Shown here in pieces: positions 52,769 through 57,116 of a stretch of 64,000 nucleotides of DNA. The notes under the pieces are model-generated. The model did no database searches. It saw nothing but the letters and a program-made list of their open reading frames with translations, and had not been told where the DNA came from. Source of the stretch: an uncultured Prevotella sp. (lineage in GTDB: Bacteria; Bacteroidota; Bacteroidia; Bacteroidales; Bacteroidaceae); NCBI GenBank assembly GCA_905236455.1, contig CAJOPT010000004.1, positions 19,157-83,156 on the forward strand, written 5' to 3'. Positions within the stretch are counted from its first letter, which is position 1. Each line of letters opens with the position of its first letter. The translations under genes and the position numbers were made by a program.

Positions 52769-55006
52769 TTACTCATCGGCGAACAACTTGCCAGTACCAT
52801 GGATGTGAGTGACGCGGTCGTTGAGCTCACTAAGCTTACCATGATTCCAGCGTTCTGTCGTTCCTACGAGATAACCTGTGATGCGTTGCAGCTTGTCAAT
52901 ATGCTTTCCGCCACATTTTGGACAGACCTCAAGTTTCGGATCGGCATTTTCATATCCGCAATCCATACAGCGGTTACGGTTATGGTTCACACTTCCATAA
53001 CCCATATTAAGGCGATCCATCATATCAACAACACTCATTATAACCTGAGGATTATGTGTGGCATCGCCATCAATCTCCACATAAAAAATATGTCCGCCTC
53101 GGGTAAGGTCATGGTATGGAGCCTCTATCTCAGCCTTATGCCGTGCAGAGCATTTATAATATACCGGCACGTGGTTTGAGTTTGTATAATAGTCACGGTC
53201 GGTAATACCTGGAAGTATTCCAAAGTCCTTACGGTCTTTCTTGGTAAACTTGCCGGCAAGTCCTTCTGCCGGTGTAGCCAGTACACTGTAGTTATGGTGG
53301 TATCGCTCAGAGAACTCATTTGCACGATCACGGAAATAGGTAATAATGCGTAGACCTAACCGTTGGCTCTCCTCCGACTCACCATGGTGTTTTCCGGTAA
53401 GAGCGACGAGACACTCTGCGAGTCCGATAAATCCGATACCTAATGTACCTTGGTTGATTACCGACTCTATCGTATCCTCCGGCTTCAGCTTATCAGCACC
53501 AATCCATAGGGAGCGCATAAGAAGAGGGAACTGCTTTACGAATGCTGTCTTCTGGAACTGAAAGCGGTCGTCAAGCTGTTTTGCAGTGACCTCTAACATA
53601 TTGTCAAGCTTTGCAAAGAAAGCAGCAATGCGGGCTTCCTGATCCTCAATATCCATACATTCGATTGCGAGGCGCACTATATTGATAGTGGAAAACGACA
53701 AATTACCTCTTCCAATACTTGTCTTCTTGCCGAAGCGGTTCTCAAAGACACGTGTGCGACATCCCATGGTAGCCACCTCATGCAAGTATCGCTTTGGATC
53801 ATCAGCCTTCCACTCATCAGATTGGTTATAGGTCGTATCCAGATTCAAGAAGTTCGGGAAGAACCTCCGGGCCGTCACCTTGCATGCCAACTGATATAGG
53901 TCATAATTGGGATCATCCGGCAAATAGTTCACCCCTCGTTTCTTTTTCCATATTTGGATTGGGAAGATTGCGGTCTCACCATTTCCCACACCCTCGTAAG
54001 TGGAAAGGAGAAGCTCACGCATAACACATCGTCCCTCTGCGGAAGTGTCTGTTCCATAATTTATACTCGAGAACACCACCTGGTTTCCACCGCGAGAGTG
54101 AATGGTGTTCATATTGTGTATGAAAGCCTCCATAGCCTGATGCACACGTCCTACAGTCTTATTAACGGCATGTTGCAGTATGCGCTCCTCACCTTGTAAG
54201 CCATCCAATGGCTTCTTCAGATAATCAATCAGCGGCAGTTCATACAGATGGTGGTAGTCTGCTCCGTACAGATCCTCAAGGCTCTTAATCTCCTCGATGA
54301 AGCTGAGGCGCACAAAAGGAGCCAGATAGAAGTCGAAAGCGGGAATAGCCTGTCCACCATGCATCTCATTCTGTGCACATTCCATTGAGATACATGCCAG
54401 CACACTGGCAGTCTCTATGCGTTTAGCCGGACGGCTCTCTCCATGTCCTGCCATAAAGCCACGATGCAGGATATTGTCAAGCGGATGCTGGCAGCATGTC
54501 AAGGACTTCGTAGGATAATAATCCTTGTCATGAATGTGCAGGTAGTTATGCTCCACAGCGTCACGGCTCTCCTCCGACAGCAGATAGTCATCCACAAAAG
54601 GCTTGGTTGTCTCACTTGCAAATTTCATCATCATGCCCGCTGGAGTATCTGCGTTCATGTTCGCATTCTCACGAGTGACATCATTCGACTTTATATTAAC
54701 AATGTCAAGGAACACCTCACGAGTCTTAGCTTTTCTGGCAATACTACGCTGATTCCTATAGGCGATATATTTCTGTGCGACATCCTTACGTGAGCTTTTC
54801 ATCAGCTCAAGCTCAACAGCGTCCTGAATATCCTCTACGGTCATCTGCGACTTACCGCGGGTGTATATTCTGTCTGTTATCAACTGAAGAAGATGCTCAT
54901 CCTCGCCTTTATCCGTATGTATCATTGCCTTACGGATAGCAGCCATAACTTTCTGTTCGTTAAACCCTACAATGCGCCCATCACGCTTTACTACGGTCTG
55001 TATCAT
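52769..55006 (-). CDS. nrdD: Anaerobic ribonucleoside-triphosphate reductase
   Basis: N-terminal ATP-cone (VVKRDGRIVGFNEQKVMAAIRKAM); CMDCGYENADPKLEVCPKCGG zinc site; RITGYLVGTTERWNHGKLSELNDRVTH glycyl-radical loop. ATG at 55006 lies downstream of the putative promoter, so it is preferred over 55057. Confidence 0.95.
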   Translation of the reverse strand: MIQTVVKRDGRIVGFNEQKVMAAIRKAMIHTDKGEDEHLLQLITDRIYTRGKSQMTVEDIQDAVELELMKSSRKDVAQKYIAYRNQRSIARKAKTREVFLDIVNIKSNDVTRENANMNADTPAGMMMKFASETTKPFVDDYLLSEESRDAVEHNYLHIHDKDYYPTKSLTCCQHPLDNILHRGFMAGHGESRPAKRIETASVLACISMECAQNEMHGGQAIPAFDFYLAPFVRLSFIEEIKSLEDLYGADYHHLYELPLIDYLKKPLDGLQGEERILQHAVNKTVGRVHQAMEAFIHNMNTIHSRGGNQVVFSSINYGTDTSAEGRCVMRELLLSTYEGVGNGETAIFPIQIWKKKRGVNYLPDDPNYDLYQLACKVTARRFFPNFLNLDTTYNQSDEWKADDPKRYLHEVATMGCRTRVFENRFGKKTSIGRGNLSFSTINIVRLAIECMDIEDQEARIAAFFAKLDNMLEVTAKQLDDRFQFQKTAFVKQFPLLMRSLWIGADKLKPEDTIESVINQGTLGIGFIGLAECLVALTGKHHGESEESQRLGLRIITYFRDRANEFSERYHHNYSVLATPAEGLAGKFTKKDRKDFGILPGITDRDYYTNSNHVPVYYKCSARHKAEIEAPYHDLTRGGHIFYVEIDGDATHNPQVIMSVVDMMDRLNMGYGSVNHNRNRCMDCGYENADPKLEVCPKCGGKHIDKLQRITGYLVGTTERWNHGKLSELNDRVTHIHGTGKLFADE

Positions 55007-55058
55007 GGTTTTGATATCGTTTAAAGTGATTAGAAATTTCTTATAGATTTTAGTCATG

Positions 55059-55066: not shown

Positions 55067-55170
55067 CTATATTATTTAATAAGAAGCACGCTCCAATTAT
55101 CCCTAAATTAGTTAAAGTATGTCAATCCACTGACAATCAGCAACATGATAAAAGCAGGTTTGATTATATC

Positions 55171-55205
55171 AAAAAAAATCGGATGTCATCCCGACGTCCG
55201 ATTTT
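55171..55205 (-). terminator. Strong minus-strand intrinsic terminator in the groL-nrdD intergenic region
   Basis: About 13-bp stem (55193-55205 / 55175-55187, one G-T wobble), loop of 5, with eight T residues on the minus strand. Confidence 0.88.
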
Positions 55206-55294
55206 CAAAAAACAAACTACTTAAAAACTAATCTACTAAAACAAATCAAAAAAATATCTTTTCGTGGCATCACGCCATTATTTCATTCATTTCT
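55171..55294 (-). ncRNA. Candidate ~120-nt small RNA between groL and nrdD
   Basis: Bracketed by a promoter-like TTG-N20-TACTTTTG (55330-55300, minus) and the intrinsic terminator; no ORF over 17 codons noted. Confidence 0.5.
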
Positions 55295-55299
55295 TAATG

Positions 55300-55330
55300 C
55301 AAAAGTAGTGCTTTTTACATAAACTTGCAA
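55300..55330 (-). promoter_or_regulatory. Putative promoter of the candidate small RNA
   Basis: Minus strand TTG (55328-55330)-N20-TACTTTTG (55300-55307). Confidence 0.6.
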
Positions 55331-55371
55331 GTTTTTGAGTCAAAACAGTGCCCAAAAAACACGATTTTAAC

Positions 55372-55411
55372 ACAAAATGAGGACATTTTCAACTAAATGT
55401 CCTCATTTTGT
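55372..55411 (-). terminator. groSL operon terminator hairpin
   Basis: Perfect 17-bp inverted repeat (55372-55388 / 55395-55411), 6-nt loop, 35 nt downstream of the groL stop. Confidence 0.85.

Positions 55412-55445: not shown

Positions 55446-57116
<1,671 letters not shown>

Follow-up and report, generated by a model that had tools for sequence, protein, structure and literature searches.

Gene organization of the locus

The window, a stretch of 64 kb (G000:C4:19157-83156), was taken from a Prevotella-type genome of 2.57 Mb that is 95% complete. Between groL and nrdD it contains a short intergenic unit on the minus strand, the parts of which are listed in Table 1. A first-pass annotation had proposed a free-standing small RNA gene here, with a TTG-N20-TACTTTTG promoter, a U-rich middle and a terminal stem carrying a 5-nt loop and a T run. 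All of these elements were indeed present in the sequence, and the U-rich middle turned out to be the most conserved part of the unit.

Table 1. Features of the groL-nrdD region (window coordinates) and of a second sRNA-like element found in other genomes (coordinates of the respective loci).
Feature	Position	Strand	Remarks
Predicted sRNA, whole	55171..55294	-	About 124 nt in the source genome; start inferred from the -7 box
Promoter TTG (55330)-N20-TACTTTTG; -7 box at 55307-55300	55300..55330	-	Sigma-ABfr type; start inferred near 55294
5' stem-loop TGGC-GTGAT-GCCA	55265..55277	-	Structure recurs across species, letters vary
Less conserved stretch AAAAGATATT, preceding the invariant block	55253..55262	-	Locus comparison
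Invariant 43-nt block TTTTTGATTTGTTTTAGTAGATTAGTTTTTAAGTAGTTTGTTT	55210..55252	-	Proposed antisense seed; column conservation, 149 loci
Intrinsic terminator AAAATCGGACGTC-GGGAT-GACATCCGATTTT and T run	55171..55205	-	C-GNRA(N)-G loop type; covariation
17-codon ORF (MPRKDIF...)	55270-55217	-
17-bp hairpin behind groL	55372..55411	-	Real stem, without canonical T tract
groL	55446..57077	-	Conserved upstream neighbour, same strand
nrdD	52769..55057	-	Downstream neighbour in the source genome only; -7 box TACCTTTG at 55066-55059
Second sRNA-like element, L069 and L075	1597-1501	-
Second sRNA-like element, L070 and L071	1501-1597	+

For comparison across genomes we used a search core of 35 nt, GATTTGTTTTAGTAGATTAGTTTTTAAGTAGTTTG (55247-55213, minus strand), with at most 3 mismatches allowed. 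A TAnnTTTG box was found no more than 160 nt 5' of this core in 148 of 149 distinct loci, compared with a mean of 27 in shuffled upstream sequences, and its distance to the core ranged from 13 to 125 nt. The leader, about 47 nt long in the source genome, differs in length among species, and in some of them the block starts only some 15-25 nt past the -7 box. Leaders longer than 30 nt (n=120) folded better than their shuffled versions, with a mean z of -1.33.

The terminator hairpin AAAATCGGACGTCGGGATGACATCCGATTTT (55205-55175) has 12-13 pairs, a 5-nt loop and one C-A mismatch, and its T run extends to 55171. Covariation in related genomes, proposed beforehand as a check, was evident in this helix: 7 of its 12 pairs showed two-sided changes, 97.7% of the cells were paired, and the covariation score exceeded those of all 500 shuffles and of all slid versions. 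Of 147 loci, 141 had a loop of the GNRA type, C-GNRA(N)-G. The core itself is partly self-paired by prediction (mean unpaired probability 0.41). A hairpin predicted within it (columns 28-50) was rejected; it lacked covariation, because its columns are invariant, and it is broken in a diverged groL-linked homologue (G146).

The first-pass annotation had also left room for a micropeptide or leader peptide encoded by the 17-codon ORF. This did not stand up to comparison: start and length of the ORF varied among loci, the core has stop codons in all three frames, and no conserved ORF spanned the invariant block in the loci compared. Judged by sequence comparison, the unit is a free-standing, non-coding RNA gene with a predicted transcript, having its own promoter and its own intrinsic terminator under selection.

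Conservation and distribution

The core was searched for in 398 genomes of the same genus and in separate samples of the family and the order. The genus is Prevotella as defined by GTDB, equivalent to Prevotella, Segatella, Hoylesella and Xylanibacter at NCBI. The core was present in 253 of the 398 genomes, about 64% of the GTDB Prevotella sampled, and among the matches listed almost all were exact. The reversed core pattern gave 0 matches in the same 398 genomes; together with the -7 box and the covarying terminator helix, this puts the observation beyond chance. Most listed genomes carried one copy; six had two (G061, G064, G091, G197, G349 and G368). Named carriers include Segatella copri (L146), S. 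buccae, Hoylesella buccalis, H. timonensis, Xylanibacter rodentium, X. rarus, Prevotella communis and P. pectinovora.

All 5 core matches in the family sample came from the same genus, with none in the 29 other genera, and the order sample yielded 0 in 294 other Bacteroidales genomes. A BLAST comparison of the groL-nrdD spacer with 60 relatives was consistent with this: 22 same-genus genomes showed 86-96% identity over about 90 nt up to the terminator, and no comparable match was found among the 60 beyond the genus. Columns -5 to +37 of the alignment carried 1.8-2.0 bits over 149 distinct loci, with 2.0 in nearly all of them. Since columns outside the search pattern were also close to 2.0 bits, the conservation is not merely an effect of selecting loci by the core.

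A covariance model further recovered a variant with an indel in G323 and the clearly diverged groL-linked homologue in G146. Its other weak matches in core-lacking genomes were discarded, since they had just the terminator type in common with the sRNA and several of them belonged to FopS or to another sRNA-like family. A second recurrent sRNA-like element, AUUCAUCAUUUAGAAUAAAACUCAGGUUUGUAGAUUAAGUUUA with a GUCGUGAUGAC-type terminator, was observed in same-genus genomes without the groL-linked core (Table 1).

Relation to known small RNAs

An Rfam/Infernal search, which the first-pass annotation had recommended, gave no match at the gathering threshold in Rfam 15. The nearest family was FopS (RF04319), at 17.7-18.5 bits against a cutoff of 56. 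The likeness of the core to the FopS R1/R1' seed (ATTAG-TTTAAG) was reached by 874/2000 and 785/2000 shuffles; as some 40% of shuffles do as well, we do not claim homology, and membership in FopS was rejected. Genuine FopS genes were found in all but one of 28 genomes examined, with 2-7 matches each. Two of them, each scoring 76 bits, lie in the source genome (G000:C25:25162-25230, plus strand, L234; G000:C96:39805-39875, minus strand), so that FopS and the groL-linked sRNA coexist.

FopS and GibS are Bacteroides sRNAs whose published mechanism is pairing at the start regions of catabolic mRNAs (PMC11697453). The groL-linked sRNA resembles them as a stand-alone Bacteroidales sRNA with a sigma-ABfr promoter, in which a mostly single-stranded portion precedes an intrinsic terminator, and it shares a GNRA-like terminator loop with part of the FopS family. 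C-GNRA(N)-G terminator loops, mostly GUGA, recur among different sRNA genes of the genus, several FopS loci included (L230, L235, L241). There are differences as well. FopS is multicopy whereas the groL-linked sRNA is usually single-copy, and the targets predicted for the latter (see below) are intracellular uronate enzymes and not SusC. In Bacteroides, RRM_1 proteins are the partners of FopS, and single-stranded regions of sRNAs are bound by one of them, RbpB (PMC11697453). In the present genus, by contrast, RbpB-type proteins are mostly absent from the genomes tested: no RRM_1 protein was found in the source genome, and 2 of the 23 other same-genus genomes tested had one.

A further candidate for comparison is SrcF, reportedly the "Segatella copri RNA colonization factor" described by El Mouali and colleagues in 2024. 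According to a citation of that work (PMC11814227), SrcF affects genes of nutrient uptake and utilisation, PULs among them. It belongs to the same clade, and the groL-linked RNA is also encoded in S. copri; SrcF enters this comparison by its description. The two may be the same RNA. In the literature searched, to which El Mouali et al. 2024 did not belong, no fragment of the core was printed as a probe or oligonucleotide. BatR of Bacteroides thetaiotaomicron, for which processed forms and a bile phenotype were reported (PMC10861873), is likewise encoded in an intergenic region, is conserved, has a -7 box and a terminator of its own and is predicted to act on mRNAs, but it differs in genus and synteny. 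The groL-linked gene is of a kind already known, the stand-alone regulatory sRNA of Bacteroidales.

Predicted targets

The reverse complement of a 48-nt single-stranded region of the sRNA was used as query against 1951 start regions of a closed relative (G016, 2.4 of 3.17 Mb covered). The two most complementary start regions were those of a uxaA-like gene and of uxaB. These genes encode altronate dehydratase and tagaturonate reductase, consecutive steps in the breakdown of D-galacturonate, the sugar acid of plant pectin; kdgK is responsible for the next step. The uxaA-like gene (PF04295/PF20629, altronate/galactarate dehydratase type) has the TIR aaacaaactcattaataacaatctac followed by ATGAAACAAAC. 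The uxaB gene (NF002969, 606 bits against a cutoff of 359) has the start region aaaaaaactaatc followed by ATG. They are unlinked in G016, at 1.576 and 1.934 Mb, 358 kb apart. Of the other genes of the pathway, kdgK reached a z of 1.33 there, which speaks for the link, and uxaC was unremarkable (0.59). No genome-wide excess of complementary start regions was found in G016, and the evidence for targets therefore comes from the two genes.

Complementarity was then expressed as z relative to shuffled start regions and compared in 17 species for each gene, a set without G016, on which the discovery had been made, and without the closely related G323. The mean z was 1.74 for uxaA and 1.89 for uxaB. 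Random sets of start regions matched for A content gave 0.05 +/- 0.23 and 0.02 +/- 0.21, respectively, and 0 of 20,000 sets scored as high. Control queries also remained low for uxaA/uxaB: 0.28/0.44 with the reversed core, 0.15/0.66 with FopS, 0.17/0.34 with the second sRNA family and -0.39/-0.20 with the sense core. The same was true for other start regions, with 0.06 for neighbouring genes (n=86), -0.58 for groL (n=68) and -0.15 for 552 start regions from the surroundings of groL in named carriers. A single genome lacking the sRNA (G083) gave 0.55 and -0.72; about 48 genomes of the genus have uxaB and no sRNA. In the window's own genome, uxaB had a z of 2.14 and uxaA one of -1.49.

The uxaB signal lay wholly in the 5'UTR (8.2 SE). 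About half of the uxaA signal lay in the first codons, to which protein conservation may contribute, and the excess from the 5'UTR only was 3.5 SE. The 5'UTRs of the uxaA and uxaB orthologues are mutually just 38-40% identical, and the excess is therefore not simply inherited sequence. Predicted duplexes comprised 30-45 nt at -21 to -29 kcal/mol, and most of them covered the AUG. The orthologues were also searched for a common, fixed pairing register, and none was found; because the start regions are A-rich, different offsets score alike. In sequence terms, the excess complementarity at start regions, replicated across species, marks the RNA as a predicted trans-acting antisense regulator, with a weaker case for the uxaA 5'UTR taken by itself.

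Two further observations concern gene context and a transporter gene. On one contig (G009:C30), uxaA (15415), uxaB (29881) and the sRNA (42932) all lie within about 28 kb, whereas other genomes have them at large distances or divided among contigs. The 5'UTR of a SusC/RagA gene of G016 (L357:14822-18052, plus strand) contains ACTAATCTAATAAAACAAA, which is complementary to the core at 18/19 bases.

Four genomes in which neither uxaA nor uxaB was found (G012, G029, G066 and G085) carry the exact core as well. Thus the two genes cannot be the sole reason for its invariance, and there must be additional targets or a partner protein. This raises the question whether a genuine conserved sRNA has its main targets elsewhere, in SusC-type transporters or in A-rich start regions generally, with the uronate link as a side effect or a fluke. 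A U-rich core does match A-rich start regions in general, and one susC start region of G016 matches ACUAAUCUA-UAAAACAAA at 18/19 positions. However, z was near 0 in the A-matched and neighbour-gene controls, the susC-like class as a whole reached -0.21 in G016, and uxaA and uxaB were replicated in species that played no part in their discovery. We consider this explanation unlikely, although it is the strongest competitor to uronate genes as the main targets.

The invariance of the block also has to be weighed in its own right. Seed regions are usually much shorter than 43 nt, which makes a fixed block of this length puzzling. It could instead be a protein-binding site, in a sponge or an RNP scaffold, and the affinity of RbpB for single-stranded regions in Bacteroides sRNAs (PMC11697453) would fit such a role. 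However, RbpB-type RRM_1 proteins were missing from the source genome and from 21 of the 23 others, an internal tandem repeat of the seed, as expected of a sponge, did not rise above shuffles (1048/2000), and protein binding would leave the excess at uxaA and uxaB unexplained. A protein site in place of an antisense region thus appears improbable.

Neighbouring genes

In 135 of 158 distinct loci, groL is the immediate upstream neighbour and has the same orientation, with a median of 197 nt (range 83-441) from its stop codon to the core. The first-pass annotation had credited groL with a terminator of its own and taken the unit as independent of both neighbours. The 17-bp stem is real; it lacks a canonical T tract, however, and is absent from the output of the terminator scan, so that some read-through from groL into the sRNA unit may occur. 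In relatives, a perfect stem of 8 bp or more was present in 47 of 134 groL-sRNA gaps, and 40 of these stems had a T-rich tail. The synteny and the hairpin without T tract could suggest a groL 3'UTR element or a processed groL tail. Against this, the promoter box sits directly ahead of the RNA in all but one of the loci, at variable distance, and the block follows it closely in some species, which makes an origin from the groL transcript very improbable.

Comparison supports independence from nrdD, which adjoins the sRNA solely in the source genome. Across loci, the closest ORF downstream shares the strand of the sRNA in 76 cases and lies on the opposite strand in 48. By synteny, nrdD is a chance neighbour, and no conserved continuity of the unit into it was seen. 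The -7 element assigned to nrdD by the first-pass annotation was confirmed; it ends 2 nt ahead of the first ATG of the nrdD ORF (55057, minus strand), and translation of nrdD probably begins at the ATG near 55006 (minus strand, MIQTVVKRDGR...). That the unit serves nrdD as a leader, attenuator or micropeptide gene, as its position ahead of this gene and the 17-codon ORF might suggest, was rejected as hardly credible, since the position is not conserved, nrdD has its own promoter box and the ORF is unconserved.

Proposed mechanism and significance

We favour a stand-alone antisense sRNA acting in trans, whose most likely effect is to repress galacturonate catabolism at translation initiation, and put the probability of this reading at roughly 60%. 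The conservation, the gene structure and the excess complementarity to uxaB and uxaA in many species are results of comparison. From these we infer a gene that would be transcribed from its sigma-ABfr promoter, in response to some inducing signal, into an RNA with a 5' hairpin, the 43-nt U-rich block and a GNRA-capped terminator. In the cell, the block would pair with the start regions of the uxaB and uxaA mRNAs as a long, interrupted antisense, often across the AUG, and would thereby most likely block ribosome loading. Repression is the suggested direction because of the position of the sites and the published mechanism of FopS. The outcome would be that D-galacturonate catabolism is curbed at tagaturonate reductase and altronate dehydratase, perhaps also at kdgK and others. 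That the block is entirely fixed implies additional targets or a protein bound to it.

A more specific version of the antisense reading can be offered tentatively, at somewhat less than even odds: an sRNA of the whole genus, unchanged across its 43-nt block and different from FopS, GibS and SrcF, would silence intracellular galacturonate (pectin) catabolism directly, at the start codons of uxaB and uxaA. It would do so by long, imperfect pairing, with target sites that shift while the RNA remains constant, in bacteria from which RRM-1 proteins are mostly absent.

To our knowledge, targets have been established for few sRNAs of Bacteroidales, and the described ones are mainly glycan-uptake operons. 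The present sRNA occurs in S. copri and in many species of the rumen, and the targets proposed for it, in central uronate metabolism, are specific and testable. Should it be SrcF, the RNA would already be known and the link to uxaA and uxaB would be a new target hypothesis. If the proposed mechanism is true, one would have to ask how such pairing is achieved in the absence of Hfq and RRM-1 chaperones, and the use of pectin by dominant bacteria of the gut and the rumen would be tied to a single RNA.
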